A DNA stretch of 43,552 nt from Parvularculaceae bacterium (GTDB lineage Bacteria; Pseudomonadota; Alphaproteobacteria; Caulobacterales; Parvularculaceae). This document shows, piece after piece, positions 6,558-21,664 of this stretch. The stretch spans positions 1-43,552 of the forward strand of contig JAGRED010000250.1 of assembly GCA_020446725.1 (NCBI GenBank), given 5' to 3'. Position 1 is the stretch's first letter. Each line of letters starts with the position of its first letter. The position numbers and the translations under genes were made by a program. Under the pieces are notes generated by a model, which saw only the letters and a program-made list of their open reading frames with translations, searched no databases and was not told where the DNA came from.

Positions 6558-8000
6558 ATGCCGACAGACACCGAGACCGACGCGACGCGACAATCGCAGG
6601 AGACCGCCGATGGCGAGGCCGTATCGGCCGCGCATTCAATGGGCGAAAGGCTGCCGTTTCCGCCGCGCCGCATGCATCTGCGCATCGTTCCGCCAAAGCC
6701 GCTGAGAAAGCCGCTTAGGGTGGTTGATCGAAGCGTTGTTCGGACGATTGAGCGGCTCGCAGCGACGCCCGTCAGTCGGCGGCGCGCTGCGATCACCGGC
6801 GCGCTCGCGCTCAACATTTTGATGCTGGCGGTGCTGGCTGTCTATGGCCGCGTCCGAATCTACGTGCCGAACAAGCCGGCCGATTCGATTTCGATCGTCT
6901 ATGTCGATCTTCCAGCCAATGTGCCGGTCATTGATCTGCGCGATCCGGAAATCGCGCCGCCCGAGCCTGAACCGGAGCCGATCGACGAGCCAGAGCTTAC
7001 CCCCGAGCCGGAACCAGCGCCTGTGCCGGAACCCGAACCAGAGCCGGAACCCAAACCCGAACCCGAACCAGAGCCCGACATTGCGCCTGCTCCGGAACCT
7101 GAACCGATCATCGACCTGACGCCCGAACCGGTTTTTGCGCCGCCGTCGGAGATCGAGGCGGAACCGTTCATCCCTGACGCCACGCCGGCGGAAGCGCCTT
7201 TGTCGCTGGATGAGCCCTTGCCGGGCGATGTGACGGTTACGGGCGAGCAAACGCCGGCGGACGAAGCCCCGCCGCTCATCACTGTCGAACCTGAAATCCG
7301 GAGCGCTGAGAGCGAGCAGGATGCCGGCGATGAGGAAGACGACGACGAGCAGGCGGGCGCAGGAGAGGTCGCCTCCGGTGACGAAGCGTCAGTTGAACGC
7401 GCGCCGGTCGCCGCTGCGGCCTCTGACCGGCCGCGGCCGGCGGACCAGCCTGCGACGGGCGACGACATGTTCGATGAAGAGCCGACATTCTCCGGGCGCA
7501 GATTTGTGCTGCCGCAAGTCGACTTGCCTGCCGGCGATGCGTCTTCGACGCCGGGAACGTCAGGCGTCGTCGCAATTTTTTGTCCTGAAGAATTCAAGGA
7601 CAAGGAAAAGGTCGCTGAATGCGCCGGCCGTCCCGAAATCCGTTCAGGCTGGCGGCCGGGGTCGACCGGCGAGGACTTTTCGAAAGCGGCGTCCATCCTC
7701 AAGGATCGCAACAGGCACGGCGACTTCTCGAATGACGCAACGACATTCGGCCCTGAAATCGCACGCCAGATCGAACAGCGCCGCCGCGTCGAGGACCTTG
7801 AAGATTTCCGTAAGAGCCAGAACCTCGGCGAAGCGAATATCGCCGATGACCCTGCGGCGGGAACGCGCCCCATAGGCGCGCCGGCGATTGAACCGTCATG
7901 GACGAGACGAGATGATCCGCTTGTCAATAACAAGGATGTCGAAACGCTGCGTCGCGAGCTGGAAGAAGCTGAAAAAGCGAAGACCATCCCTGACGAATAA
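6558..8000 (+). CDS. Single-pass membrane protein with Pro-Glu-rich periplasmic spacer, TonB-like layout
   Basis: Unrecognised 480-residue protein. Residues 1-75 are polar and basic (cytoplasmic), 77-97 form one membrane helix ([19 protein letters not shown]), followed by a short [10 protein letters not shown] segment and then an extended Pro-Glu/Pro-Lys repeat (about 134-190) and an acidic low-complexity stretch to about 310. The C-terminal part contains a close Cys pair (FCPEEF and VAECAG, about 20 residues apart), then a charged helical region ending in a coiled-coil-like tail. The layout resembles TonB (inner-membrane anchor and PE/PK spacer), but I see no TonB C-terminal domain, and no exbB or exbD is adjacent. 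It could span the periplasm as a scaffold. It faces the rplU-rpmA operon and diverges from purD. Confidence 0.7.
6957..7127 (+). repeat. Low-complexity Pro-Glu codon repeat inside the TonB-like gene
   Basis: Degenerate tandem hexanucleotide units of the form CCGGAA, CCCGAA or CCAGAG encode alternating Pro-Glu with occasional Lys, Ala, Asp or Ile. Synonymous codons alternate, so this is selected at protein level rather than being a recent DNA slippage array. Large antisense open frames across this stretch are by-products of the repeat. Confidence 0.8.
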
Positions 8001-13896: not shown

Positions 13897-15375
13897 ATGG
13901 CTGACAATCCTTTGATCCTCGCGATCGATCAGGGAACGACGTCTTCGCGGGCGCTCGTTTTTGATCGCAATGCTGACATCGTCGCGCTTGCGCAGTCTGA
14001 ATTTCCTCAAATCTATCCGCAGCCGGGGTGGGTGGAACACGATCCGGAAGCAATCTGGACGACGACGATTGAGACGGCGCGCGCCGCCATGACGAAAGCG
14101 GCGGCGATGGGCGGCCGGGTCGTCGCCATCGGCGTCACCAACCAGCGTGAGACGACAGTCGTCTGGGACAGGAAGACGCTGAAGCCGATCCACAACGCCA
14201 TTGTCTGGCAGGATCGCAGAACGGCTGATGTCTGCGCGAAGCTGAAAAAGGAAGGGATCGAAGAGCGGATTCAGGCCTCGACCGGCTTGCTGCTCGATCC
14301 CTATTTTTCCGCGACGAAAATCGCATGGATTCTCGACCATGTCGAGAATGCGCGCGAACGCGCGAAACGCGGCGACCTGGCGTTCGGCACGATCGATTCA
14401 TTTCTGCTCGCACGATTGACCGGCGGCGCGCATCTGACCGATGCGACCAACGCCAGCCGAACGAGCCTCTTGAACATTCGGGAAAACTGCTGGGACGATG
14501 CGCTTCTCAGCCGATTTGACGTTCCGCGCGCGGTGTTGCCCGAGGTCGTCGACAATATTTCCGAATTCGGCGTCACGAGTGCGGGCCTCTTCGATGACGA
14601 GCTCCCGGTTTTCGCCATGATCGGCGATCAGCAATCCGCGGCGATCGGGCAGGCGTGCCTTGAGCCCGGCGACATCAAGGCGACCTATGGAACCGGTTGT
14701 TTTGTTCTTGCGCCGACCGAAAGATTTTTGACCTCGAAAAACCGTTTGCTGACGACGATCGCACGACGGATGGACGGGGTCACAACTTATGCGCTGGAAG
14801 GCTCGATATTCGTCGCCGGCGCCGCCATTCAATGGCTTCGCGATGCGCTGGGGATCATCAAATCATCGTCGGAGACCGAAGAGCTGGCGCGCTCTTTAGA
14901 GTCGAACAACGGCGTTTATCTCGTTCCGGCTTTCGCCGGGCTTGGCGCGCCTCATTGGGCCGCCGACGCGCGCGGCGTCATAACCGGGCTGACGCGCGGC
15001 GCAGGGAAAGCCGAATTCGCGCGCGCCGCGCTTGAATGCGTCGCCTATCAGACCGCCGATCTGATCGATGCGATGGCGGCGGATGACGCGCCTTGCCGTA
15101 TGCTGAAAGTCGATGGCGGCATGACGGCGAACGGCTGGCTGATGCAATTCCTTGCGGACGTTCAGAAGGCGCCTGTCGATAGACCCGCGATCATGGAAAC
15201 GACGGCGCTTGGCGCGGCGTTTCTGGCGGGCGTGAAAGCCGGCGTCTATGAAAGTCTTGAAAGCGTCCGCGATCTCAGAAAGACAGAGCGCGTTTTTTCA
15301 CCGAACATGCCTGAAAAAGAACGCACAAAGTTGCGTGCGGAATGGAAAATTGCGCTTGATCGCACGCTTCTATGA
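13897..15375 (+). CDS. glpK: Glycerol kinase
   Basis: ATP-dependent phosphorylation of glycerol to glycerol-3-phosphate in the cytosol. FGGY-kinase signatures include AIDQGTTSSRA at residues 9-19 (phosphate-binding loop), NQRETTVVW, WQDRRTAD, GDQQSAAIGQACLEPGDIKATYGTGCF, and the C-terminal DGGMTANGWLMQFLADV adenosine-binding segment. Length (492) is standard. GGGAG lies 8 bases before the ATG. Neither glpF, glpD nor glpR is nearby; the next gene, 30 bases downstream, is the PEPC-like gene, probably co-transcribed. Confidence 0.97.
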   Translation: MADNPLILAIDQGTTSSRALVFDRNADIVALAQSEFPQIYPQPGWVEHDPEAIWTTTIETARAAMTKAAAMGGRVVAIGVTNQRETTVVWDRKTLKPIHNAIVWQDRRTADVCAKLKKEGIEERIQASTGLLLDPYFSATKIAWILDHVENARERAKRGDLAFGTIDSFLLARLTGGAHLTDATNASRTSLLNIRENCWDDALLSRFDVPRAVLPEVVDNISEFGVTSAGLFDDELPVFAMIGDQQSAAIGQACLEPGDIKATYGTGCFVLAPTERFLTSKNRLLTTIARRMDGVTTYALEGSIFVAGAAIQWLRDALGIIKSSSETEELARSLESNNGVYLVPAFAGLGAPHWAADARGVITGLTRGAGKAEFARAALECVAYQTADLIDAMAADDAPCRMLKVDGGMTANGWLMQFLADVQKAPVDRPAIMETTALGAAFLAGVKAGVYESLESVRDLRKTERVFSPNMPEKERTKLRAEWKIALDRTLL

Positions 15376-15405
15376 TGCGACGAGGGCCGCCGATTGGAGG
15401 CTCTA

Positions 15406-18195
15406 ATGCACGGTGACGAAGATCCCAGGACGCTGGATTTGTATCAGTGGTGCGGTGATGAGTTGTCTCACCATGAGGAGAAGGCGCTTCGGGATCCGCT
15501 GGCGAGCAGCGTCAGAATGCTCACCATGGCGTTATGGGATCGTCTTGCGAAAGGCGAGAGCGACCGGAGCGAACTTTCAAATCTTGCAAAGGCGATCAGC
15601 GATCGCGCGCTCATTGAACGGGCGACGCGGCTGAGAGGCAAGACACGGCCCGGCGATTGGGAAGAAGCGGTCAACGAAGCCTTGTCATCGCTCGAAGGAT
15701 TGTCGTTCGAGGAAGCGGCCGACCAGCTTGCCGTGACGAAGGCTGGCGTTGTCTTTACCGCCCATCCGACGTTTTCACTTTCTCGCGCGCTTCGCGAGGC
15801 GATCGGCCGCCTTGCGTCAGGTGAAGAAGGTGACGAGGCGCTGGCGGACCTGCCGCATGCTCCGGATTCATCGATCACTTTGCTTGACGAACATGAAGAT
15901 GCGCAGGCGACAATCGCGCGCGCTCAAGAATCTCTGCGGCGCCTCTATGGATGCGTGTTTGACTGGCTGCAGGCGCGTTATCCCGACGATTGGATGAAGG
16001 CGCGGCCGCACCTGCTCAGCATCGCGACATGGGTCGGCTATGACCTTGATGGTCGCACGGATATCAGCTGGGGACAGACCATAAGGTTGCGACTTGAAGA
16101 AAAAGCCTTGCAGCTTTTTCGCTATGCGCGCGCGCTTGGATCTATTCCGGGCGCCGGCGACATCGCGGCTATTTTGATCGACGCGGGAGAGGAAGCCGCG
16201 CAACAGGCGCAGCTTTTCGCTGGCGATCTCGACGATCCGTCGGCGATCGTCGCGGCGGCCAATCGTCTGACCGAGGAACGGCCTGGAAGGCTGGTGACGC
16301 TAAACGGCGTCAAACAGCGCCTTACCGATTTGATGCCGAGCCTCGACGAGCAATCCCGGAAGGCGCTTTGCATCCTGCTTTCCGAAATGGAAGCGTTCGG
16401 CCTTGGCGTCGCGCGCATTCATCTGCGCGTGAACGCGGCGCAAATCAGGTCCGCCTTGCGCGCCGACCTTGGATTGTCGCCGGGACGCGAGTTTCTAGAT
16501 CGCACGGCGCTCGACGCGGCTGCGCAGAAAAGCGCTGCCGCCCGCGAGAAAGCGATCAATTTCGGCAGCATTCACCTCGAACAGATGACGGCGCGTCGTC
16601 AGCTAATGCTGTGCGCTCAGATATTGAAGCATGTCGACGCTGAGACGCCGTTGCGGTTTCTCATAGCGGAAGTCGAAGCGCCTGCGACAATCATGGGCGC
16701 GATCTATCTTGCCCGCCTTTACGGGGTTGACCACAAGCTCGACATTTCTCCGCTCTTTGAAACGCCCGATGCGATCGAACGCGGCGGACGCTTCATCGAG
16801 CGCCTGCTCGAAGAGGAAGAGTTCCTGTCCTATGTCAGGAAACGCGGGCGGCTTTGCATCCAGTGCGGGTTTTCCGACAGCGGCCGGTTCATGGGTCAGA
16901 TTGCGGCCGATCTCGGCATTGAGCGGCTGCATATTCTCGTCTCGCGCGCCTTGGCGGCGAAGGGCGTGTCCGGCATTGAAGTCGTCATTTTCAATACGCA
17001 CGGCGAATCGATGGGGCGGGGCGGTCATTCCGGCGACCTAGAAGCGCGGCTCGATCATCTGATGACGCCCTGGGCGAGCGCGCGCTTCGCGCGCGACAAG
17101 CTGCAGCTCAACGCCGAATGCAGTTTTCAGGGCGGCGATGGATTTCTCCATTTCCAGACATCGGCGCTATCCGACGCGACGATGAGGACGATCTTCAAGT
17201 GGTCGCAACGCGTTGCCGATGTGAGCCGCGACGATCGCTTCTATAGCGACATCAATTTTTCCTGGGACGTTTACCGCGCGATCAAGGGCTGGCAGGAAAC
17301 GCTCTTCGCCGACCCGAATTACCGCGCTGCCCTGTCGGTGTTTGCGCCAAACATTCTCCCCTCGACCGGATCGCGCAAGACGCGCCGGCAAAGCGGAACG
17401 TCAAAGGACGATGCGGCGAAATCGCTGCGCGCGATACCGCATAACGCCGTATTGCAGCAGCTCGCCGCGCCGGCGAATGTTCTTGGCGGCATGGGCGGCG
17501 CAGCGGCGCGCGAGCCCGAACGATTTGCAAGTTTGGTGCGCGGTTCGCGGCGGATGCGCGGCGTTTTTTCATTGGCGGTTGCGGCGCGGAAACTGACGAG
17601 CCTTTCAATTCTTCGCGCTTATGCGAGCTTGTACGATCCGGGATTCTGGACAGTTCGCGCCGCCAGATCGCCTGACGGCACAAATCATACGGCGCCGCTG
17701 CGGGTCGCGAGCCGTCTGTCCGAGCGCTCGCTCGATGTCGGACTTGATCGGCTGGCGAACTTTCTTTCCGTTGACCGCCAGCAGTTCGACGCCGCCTGCC
17801 GTCAGATGGGTGAACCGGAATGCGCGGATGATGGTTTCAGCAAGGATCTCTACATTCTTCACGCCATTAGGATGGCGTTGATTGCTGACGGATTGTCATT
17901 GGTCGCATCGACGCCGCCTTTTTCTCCGCGCCATGAACTAACGCGGGATTCGCTTGTCGATCTGGCGCTGGATTTGCGTTTTGCGGAGGTCGCCTCGACC
18001 ATCGAGGAGATTTTCCCGGAAACAGAGCAGGAACCGCCGGAATTCGCCGGGCTTTCAGAACGGGCCGATCCGGACGAGAGGCCGGGCGGCTATCCTCAGG
18101 TCAAACGGGAAATCGTGTCGCCGCTACGCACCCTTGATGCGAAGATCAAGGAAATTTCCGTCGGCATTTCGCACTTCTACGACGCGTTCGGCTGA
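15406..18195 (+). CDS. Divergent phosphoenolpyruvate carboxylase homologue with altered catalytic loops
   Basis: 929-residue protein of the PEPC superfamily. Numbered from the ATG at 15406 (GGAGG, 5-base spacer; a TTG four codons upstream is less likely), aligned features are: TAHPTF at 118-123 (H120 equals E. coli H138), IHLR with R341 (R396), PLFET with E452 and GFSDSGR with D491 (metal ligands E506 and D543), FNTHGESMGRGG at 529-540 with R538 (R587), GSR with R657 (R699) and SLRAIP with R675 (R713). Unusual are K546 to R494, H579 to N530, R581 to H532, TAHPTE ending in Phe, and absence of the C-terminal RNTG. The fold, metal site and PEP-binding arginines look kept; the bicarbonate/carboxylation loop is changed. 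It may be a weak or allosterically different PEPC, or a PEP-binding enzyme of another function. It probably forms an operon with glpK. Confidence 0.8.
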   Translation: MHGDEDPRTLDLYQWCGDELSHHEEKALRDPLASSVRMLTMALWDRLAKGESDRSELSNLAKAISDRALIERATRLRGKTRPGDWEEAVNEALSSLEGLSFEEAADQLAVTKAGVVFTAHPTFSLSRALREAIGRLASGEEGDEALADLPHAPDSSITLLDEHEDAQATIARAQESLRRLYGCVFDWLQARYPDDWMKARPHLLSIATWVGYDLDGRTDISWGQTIRLRLEEKALQLFRYARALGSIPGAGDIAAILIDAGEEAAQQAQLFAGDLDDPSAIVAAANRLTEERPGRLVTLNGVKQRLTDLMPSLDEQSRKALCILLSEMEAFGLGVARIHLRVNAAQIRSALRADLGLSPGREFLDRTALDAAAQKSAAAREKAINFGSIHLEQMTARRQLMLCAQILKHVDAETPLRFLIAEVEAPATIMGAIYLARLYGVDHKLDISPLFETPDAIERGGRFIERLLEEEEFLSYVRKRGRLCIQCGFSDSGRFMGQIAADLGIERLHILVSRALAAKGVSGIEVVIFNTHGESMGRGGHSGDLEARLDHLMTPWASARFARDKLQLNAECSFQGGDGFLHFQTSALSDATMRTIFKWSQRVADVSRDDRFYSDINFSWDVYRAIKGWQETLFADPNYRAALSVFAPNILPSTGSRKTRRQSGTSKDDAAKSLRAIPHNAVLQQLAAPANVLGGMGGAAAREPERFASLVRGSRRMRGVFSLAVAARKLTSLSILRAYASLYDPGFWTVRAARSPDGTNHTAPLRVASRLSERSLDVGLDRLANFLSVDRQQFDAACRQMGEPECADDGFSKDLYILHAIRMALIADGLSLVASTPPFSPRHELTRDSLVDLALDLRFAEVASTIEEIFPETEQEPPEFAGLSERADPDERPGGYPQVKREIVSPLRTLDAKIKEISVGISHFYDAFG

Positions 18196-20767: not shown

Positions 20768-21538
20768 TCAAAAAGTCGACCAGACGCCGACGAATGCCGC
20801 CGTCCCGGACGTGATGTTGCGCGTCTTGAATTCCTTTCTTCCGCCGGCGACGAGCGCCCATTTTTCCGATGCGCGCCACACAACCGAGGCCTGGCCCTTG
20901 TAGAGATCGAAATCGGCGAATGACGGTTCTTCGTTTTTCAGGGAAACGATCGACTGGCCTTCGAGAAGGATCATCAGGCGCCGGTGCGGTTCAACGCCGA
21001 CGAGGAGGTCGGTTCGCACCTGATCCGCGTCTCCGCCGAAGCGCCGACGATAGCCGACCTCCGCCGTTGCAAATATCTTGAACGGCTCGAGCAGGACGTC
21101 GCGGCCGTAGAGCGCGCGGAGCTCAACCTCCATGTTCGGCGTCGGGGCGCCCGATTGCGCGTCGAGCGAGAGCCTGCCGGAACGACCGCCGGTTATTTTC
21201 AATGCGGTCGCCGATCGTGACCCGCGCAGTATCTGACGCTGGATGTAAATCTCTGTTTCGTTGAAGCCGTCTTGCGTCAGGCTGCCGCCGATGAATTCAC
21301 TGAAGCTGACGCCGTAGGAGACCCGTCCTCCCGTCATCCATTTCGGCGTCAGTCCGTATTCGACATAGGTGTCGGAATCGACGCGGGCGTAGCGGCTGAT
21401 GTCGGTTTTCGACCAATAATAATTCGCGGTTGTCGCTGTGAAGAGGCGGCCGTCGTCCCGATTCCACGGACTTGCAGTCGCCGGCGACGCGAAAAGCATC
21501 GCAAGCGCGACGACGCAGCAGCCGATTTTCTCCCCCAT
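20768..21538 (-). CDS. Probable outer-membrane protein, XagA-like
   Basis: From the ATG at 21538 a signal peptide reads MGEKIGCCVVALAMLFASPATA then SPW. The mature part consists of alternating amphipathic strands with many aromatic and glycine residues (YVEYGLTPKWMTGGRVSYG, ALYGRDVLLEPFKIFATAEVGYRRRFGG) and ends in a Phe after Trp (VWSTF), as in outer-membrane barrels. Location directly upstream of an XagB-like glycosyltransferase supports the XagA assignment and a role in export or anchoring of the polymer. A TTG-initiated extension to 21568 is possible but would displace the signal peptide. The promoter is expected in the 126 bases before the start. Confidence 0.75.
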   Translation of the reverse strand: MGEKIGCCVVALAMLFASPATASPWNRDDGRLFTATTANYYWSKTDISRYARVDSDTYVEYGLTPKWMTGGRVSYGVSFSEFIGGSLTQDGFNETEIYIQRQILRGSRSATALKITGGRSGRLSLDAQSGAPTPNMEVELRALYGRDVLLEPFKIFATAEVGYRRRFGGDADQVRTDLLVGVEPHRRLMILLEGQSIVSLKNEEPSFADFDLYKGQASVVWRASEKWALVAGGRKEFKTRNITSGTAAFVGVWSTF

Positions 21539-21664
21539 CGGTCCCCGGAACGCATCAGTTGCAGGCAACTGTCGACACGTCCGGGTTGTCCGAAGGCGCG
21601 ATCAGCAGCCTGCGGAGACTAACGGGAGCAATAGAGTCAGCCCAGCAATCTCAGGTTGCAATCG

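Follow-up and report, generated by a model that had tools for sequence, protein, structure and literature searches.

Close behind a glycerol kinase gene, in a 43,552-nucleotide stretch of DNA from a Parvularculaceae bacterium (the window), lies a gene whose product resembles phosphoenolpyruvate carboxylase (PEPC) but differs from it at catalytic positions. The locus raises the question of whether this protein carries out the PEPC reaction or a different one on phosphoenolpyruvate (PEP). A preliminary description had favoured an altered or different reaction, possibly linked to the entry of glycerol.

The open reading frame of this divergent PEP carboxylase-like gene (protein P0001, 929 amino acids; 15406..18195, + strand) is complete, with a start ATG at 15406 and a stop codon at 18193-18195, and reading of the sequence placed a GGAGG motif resembling a ribosome-binding site ahead of the ATG (15396..15400, +). 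The gene was assigned from a Pfam match, its family-wide occurrence and an AlphaFold2 model. The neighbouring gene, glpK (13897..15375, +), was identified as glycerol kinase with TIGR01311 (649.9 bits, cut-off 590.35); its stop codon, on the same strand, occupies 15373-15375, so the two genes are 30 bases apart, as first described. Two other open reading frames in the window had no Pfam match, one of 480 amino acids (6558-8000, +) and one of 266 amino acids (20768-21568, -) between a GT2 glycosyltransferase gene and aconitase.

Family membership and predicted fold

Analysis of P0001 with Pfam revealed PF00311 (PEPcase) as the sole match reported, at 56 bits and above the gathering cut-off of 22.4. 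The NCBIfam PEPC equivalog model NF000584 scored 53 bits against a cut-off of 815, which makes the protein a PEPC relative far from the standard enzyme. When the Protein Data Bank was searched with the P0001 sequence, 12 of the 12 matches at E ≤ 1 were PEPCs (best 5e-10), and a search with a profile of the family gave 12 matches at E < 0.09, also PEPCs (best 2e-19). Family-profile scores were bimodal, at approximately 910 or more in full-length members and 76 or less in canonical PEPCs. A tree of 42 family rows and 19 canonical rows was split between the two groups by one branch with an SH-aLRT support of 100 and a combined length of approximately 5.4 changes per column, bearing out a separate clade for the divergent protein.

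Genome contigs encode at least 574 stretches with relatives, and Hyphomonas, Henriciella, Hyphomicrobium, Qipengyuania, Kiloniella and Methyloligella are represented among 80 of these. The divergent proteins apparently constitute a large PEPC-like bacterial family that has so far gone unstudied; a search of the open-access literature, outside which subscription papers mostly lie, found no paper on the clade. One genome of the window's GTDB family (G013) has two divergent copies on different contigs (L033 and L044), and the match to the second copy spans query residues 28-754 only. On present evidence P0001 would function like a PEPC, although it falls outside the canonical PEPC equivalog.

An AlphaFold2 model of P0001, built from a 60-sequence alignment, had a mean pLDDT of 92.2 and a pTM of 0.93. 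The top fold matches of the model were PEPCs along the whole chain, the best being 6mgi_A (Z 32.4, rmsd 4.1, 759 residues aligned, 17% identity), with E. coli PEPC (1jqn) at Z 28.2 over 752 aligned residues; the last residue of the model aligned with the end of the E. coli chain, whose range ends at 883. P0001 is thus predicted to have the whole-length PEPC fold of canonical enzymes such as E. coli Ppc and maize C4 PEPC, and the fold retention claimed earlier is borne out in the model. The archaeal-type PEPC (PepcA, 3odm), which has 526 residues compared with 929 in P0001, shared the core fold in a partial match (Z 18.5, 468 aligned).

Active-site residues

A profile of 83 family members, sampled within the window's own family and its class, was aligned with a profile of 31 canonical PEPCs (Ppc of E. 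coli K-12 and 30 others) at a probability of 99.7, and residue counts were compared with 61 canonical PEPCs. Window duplicates and cut-off or broken copies (L001, L002, L029, L044 and L031, a relative with two in-frame stops) were excluded from the 83 rows. Local and global profile alignments gave identical correspondences; misalignment as the source of the substitutions was thereby ruled out, and every pairing proposed in the preliminary description turned out to be right.

Seven E. coli residues, H138, R396, E506, D543, R587, R699 and R713, were invariant in both groups, with H138 present in all 60 canonical rows that have a letter at that position. Their equivalents in P0001, each found in 83 of 83 members, are the catalytic histidine H120 (first residue of the HPTF motif H120-F123, 15763..15774, +), the PEP-binding R341 (in R341-V-N343, 16426..16434, +), the metal ligands E452 (16759..16761, +) and D491 (in D491-R494, 16876..16887, +), R538, R657 (17374..17376, +) and the PEP-binding R675 (17428..17430, +), respectively. 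Retention therefore extends to the metal ligands and most of the PEP-binding arginines, in line with the earlier claim.

In contrast, other catalytic positions differed between the two groups. The position of E141 is F123 in P0001 and Phe in 83/83 family members (Glu in 60/60 canonical rows with a letter), and that of K546 is R494 and Arg in 83/83 (Lys in 61/61). The equivalent of the GRGG loop reads NTHGESMGR (N530-R538, 16993..17019, +), with N530 for H579, H532 for R581 and E534 for G583 ahead of R538. At the H579 position (16993-16995) the 83 members have Asn in 49, Asp in 33 and Ser in one, and His in none, compared with His in 61/61 canonical PEPCs; the R581 position is His in 82/83 and Arg in 61/61, and the G583 position is Glu in 81 and Asp in two, with Gly in all canonical rows with a letter. 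The changes at E141, K546, H579 and R581 were those named from the sequence at the outset, and the claim of altered catalytic loops holds. Family-specific invariants include N343, T531, N680 and Q685, as well as R417 and E422, two charged residues of the core-strand motif RFLIAE (R417-E422, 16654..16671, +; both 83/83), for which the model has a strand at 416-421. The list also takes in the terminal glycine G929 (18190..18192, +), invariant in 83/83 and, by fold comparison, common to canonical PEPC; the C-terminal RNTG is indeed absent, as noted previously, P0001 ending in DAFG, but its glycine is nonetheless kept. At the aspartate site, K773 pairs with L730, while R832 and N881 lie beyond the ends of the local alignment. 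The four plasmid copies of the gene all have the family residues, and each exceeds 1040 bits against the family profile.

A total of 60 columns were invariant across the 83 sequences, many of them within active-site motifs, which rules out decay to a pseudogene. The substitutions are fixed across a separate clade and reflect neither decay nor misalignment. The loss of residues usually called essential could still be read as the mark of a non-catalytic or regulatory PEPC relative, but this is extremely improbable given those invariant columns, the retention of the metal ligands, H120 and four arginines in 83/83 members, and the replacement pattern described below. A different PEP enzyme, one that hydrolyses PEP in a bicarbonate-dependent way, forms pyrophosphate while carboxylating PEP or passes the enolate to some other acceptor, would account for the change and fixation of the K546, H579, R581 and E141 equivalents, for the new invariant or near-invariant R417, E422, T531 and E534 and for the length of the branch to canonical PEPC. 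We nevertheless regard such an enzyme as unlikely in view of where the gene occurs and what surrounds it.

Occurrence in genomes

Of the 62 genomes that make up the window's GTDB family, 53 had a match to P0001, whereas canonical ppc was present in none and full pyruvate carboxylase (pyc) in three. A PF00311 search of the same family found 50 genomes compared with 53 for the P0001 search, so about 1 in 20 family copies may be missed. The window's own genome, which is 98.5% complete, was searched for both canonical ppc and pyc, as proposed earlier, and contained no canonical ppc, no full pyruvate carboxylase and no ATP-type PEPCK.

Another GTDB family of 249 genomes (f13), which we infer from the tree position of G268, with Erythrobacteraceae, to be the Sphingomonadaceae/Erythrobacteraceae group, contains both types. 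With types assigned by E-value only, and with split or fragmentary canonical genes (e.g. G741, G764, G775, G887, G901, G938 and G946) taken as canonical, 118 genomes had canonical PEPC, 107 had the divergent protein, none had both (50.7 expected) and 24 had neither. Three genera of this family were mixed (3/2, 1/3 and 3/1), the two types being found in different species.

A class sample of 289 genomes contained the divergent family in 50 (37 confirmed with the profile, namely 36 loci and the window, and 13 assigned via PF00311 score alone), canonical ppc in 33 and full pyruvate carboxylase in 50; G198 was counted as canonical from fragments, and odd PF00311 matches in G319, G155, G070, G322 and G185 were all counted as neither, those of the first four (L084, L085, L086 and L123) having no family-profile match. 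The divergent family overlapped with canonical ppc or pyc in 2 genomes compared with 13.8 expected (Fisher P = 7e-6), and when one genome of 2 Mb or more was taken per GTDB family the mean overlap was 0.86 compared with 6.64 expected (median P = 0.001). The genes ppc and pyc do the same metabolic job; as a comparison pair they overlapped in 3 genomes of the class sample, with 5.7 expected. Both PEPC types were found together in G299 (class sample), G350 (Methyloligella) and G351, and the divergent gene together with pyc in G275, G019, G045, G357 and G358.

This avoidance is no proof of need, since all three enzymes are missing from many genomes that are nearly complete, among them 88 of the 202 class-sample genomes of 2 Mb or more. 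Similarly, of the 24 genomes without a PF00311 match in the 249-genome family, the 20 that were checked included none with full pyc, indicating that some genomes live without all three.

No divergent-level score was found outside the class among the genomes listed for a 397-genome phylum sample, in which some genomes had two matches (e.g. G480, G486, G497 and G560). Family members with 35-36% identity were seen in two metagenome-assembled genomes labelled Thermodesulfobacteriales/Thermodesulfobacteriota (L185 and L186), reflecting transfer or mis-binning. For Roseobacter denitrificans, a published study gives PEPC activity in extracts and RD1_4248 as ppc, which may be canonical or divergent (PMC2749216).

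The divergent gene stands in place of the standard enzyme in many relatives, and it is therefore probable that it does the same carbon-fixing job, using a different set of catalytic residues. Avoidance of both canonical PEPC and pyruvate carboxylase, or swapping with PEPC within genera, would not be expected of an enzyme with another reaction on PEP, although a carboxylation that forms pyrophosphate would be compatible with the replacement pattern.

Gene neighbourhoods and proposed function

The 30-base gap on the same strand could be read as a sign of co-transcription with glpK and of a role in glycerol use, with the protein processing glycerol-derived PEP, and the same adjacency was seen in L124 and L125. 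However, these two loci are the closest relatives of the window, and among 137 family loci compared no others had an adjacent glpK (glpK-like genes in L168 and L169 were approximately 7 kb distant); elsewhere the neighbours were eda, gap, mtkB or unrelated genes. The glpK arrangement (3 of 137 loci) was dismissed as lineage-specific, and the proposed link to glycerol entry, which these counts do not bear out, is very unlikely; a functional connection between the two genes is not favoured. In the wider neighbour count, from which 10 of the 137 loci were dropped because the gene was not among the chosen open reading frames, no neighbour common to all lineages was found in 117 non-redundant loci, and the largest neighbour cluster (14 of the 117) comprised AcrB-type transporters in varying positions.

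Loci from Hyphomicrobium and Filomicrobium had, on one strand, genes for an HpcH/HpaI-family lyase, mtkA (malate-CoA ligase beta), mtkB (alpha) and the divergent protein, in that order; mtkA was tested in two loci, with scores of 717.6 and 713.7 bits (cut-off 604). Two canonical loci of the serine type, L082 and L083, have an mtkB 70-79% identical beside ppc, followed in L082 by a 66% identical lyase, but the tree places their PEPCs among the canonical ones, unlike the divergent family. Methylosinus trichosporium OB3b has the same company, mtkA/mtkB and malyl-CoA lyase, around its 'non-regulated' serine-cycle PEPC (Ppc1): the OB3b study gives the neighbours as mclA, ppc1, mtkB and mtkA and states that both OB3b PEPC enzymes keep the PEP-binding residues (PMC3615186). 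In the serine cycle PEPC converts PEP to oxaloacetate (PMC2948502). Analysis of nine Hyphomicrobiaceae genomes revealed the divergent type only in seven (G352-G358) and both types in two (G350 and G351); among the nine, pyc was present in G357 and G358 only, and five of G352-G358 had neither canonical ppc nor pyc. In Hyphomicrobium, the divergent gene sits where the serine-cycle operon would otherwise have its PEPC gene, with no canonical copy in the genome, and the enzyme probably supplies serine-cycle oxaloacetate. A different PEP enzyme would have no reason to adjoin mtkB in genomes without PEPC.

Plasmid copies had other neighbours. On a Phyllobacterium plasmid, a sucC/sucD-type ligase pair lies directly upstream of the divergent gene with overlapping ends, its beta subunit falling short of the malate-CoA ligase cut-off (501.9 bits compared with 604). 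A Sphingobium plasmid (L241:1355-8730) encodes a 2-hydroxyacid dehydrogenase, an APH-fold kinase, a second (true) enolase, an FAA-hydrolase-type protein and the divergent PEPC, a run that looks like a dedicated route from glycerate or hydroxypyruvate to oxaloacetate. The copy on a Burkholderia pyrrocinia BX1 plasmid (L239:6245-10804) sits between RraA-like and 2-hydroxyacid dehydrogenase genes within a 5-oxoprolinase / biotin-carboxylase region, and its presence in a betaproteobacterium suggests transfer out of Alphaproteobacteria. In L120 the divergent gene is the last of a same-strand run, zwf-edd-glk-eda, and nine loci have a same-strand gap gene upstream of it, within 300 bases in seven of them. 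Most of the Hyphomicrobium, plasmid, L120 and gap contexts are sites of PEP production or oxaloacetate use.

Taken together, the distribution and gene neighbourhoods match a stand-in for PEPC and disfavour the altered or different reaction originally proposed. From the predicted fold, the kept residues, the replacement pattern and the operon contexts we consider it likely that P0001 is a functional, deeply divergent PEPC that stands in for the canonical enzyme across many Alphaproteobacteria and feeds oxaloacetate into the TCA cycle. The change of three catalytic residues present in 61/61 canonical PEPCs counts against this, as do the genomes with both PEPC types or with the divergent gene plus pyc, and the setting of the Burkholderia copy. 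The reaction would be PEP + bicarbonate to oxaloacetate + phosphate. PEP would be held by the metal on E452/D491 and by R341, R657 and R675, as in PEPC; bicarbonate would attack the PEP phosphate to give carboxyphosphate and the enolate, and the enolate would then take CO2. H120 and R538 would do the work of H138 and R587, and R494, N/D530, H532 and E534 may assume the roles of K546, H579 and R581. In known PEPCs, H138 and R587 are needed for the formation of oxaloacetate, while changing K546 to Arg or H579 to Asn leaves an active enzyme with reduced affinity or rate, and these effects fit which residues have changed in the family and which have stayed. The change of R581 to His is the hardest to predict. 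Altered affinity for bicarbonate or PEP and altered allosteric control are probable.

A bolder form of this proposal, which we put forward tentatively as somewhat less than an even chance, is that the family represents a third natural type of PEPC beside the bacterial/plant and archaeal types, serving the oxaloacetate supply of a large share of the Alphaproteobacteria with the carboxylation half of its active site rebuilt: Arg for Lys, Asn/Asp for His, His-Gly-Glu for Arg-Gly-Gly, and the new invariants R417 and E422. Such an enzyme might differ in its preference for CO2 or bicarbonate or in its phosphate product, or might lack control by aspartate or malate.

Annotation of the members is mixed, some being named 'phosphoenolpyruvate carboxylase' and others 'hypothetical protein', so that metabolic models using the divergent gene may be correct or mistaken by chance. 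If the protein is a PEPC, then K546, H579 and R581, long treated as essential, are replaceable by another fixed set of residues, and the family would be a natural experiment on PEPC carboxylation as well as a new CO2-fixing enzyme for engineering. It would also provide the PEPC that the serine cycle of Hyphomicrobium otherwise lacks, and close what looks like an anaplerotic gap in many Alphaproteobacteria that have neither ppc nor pyc.
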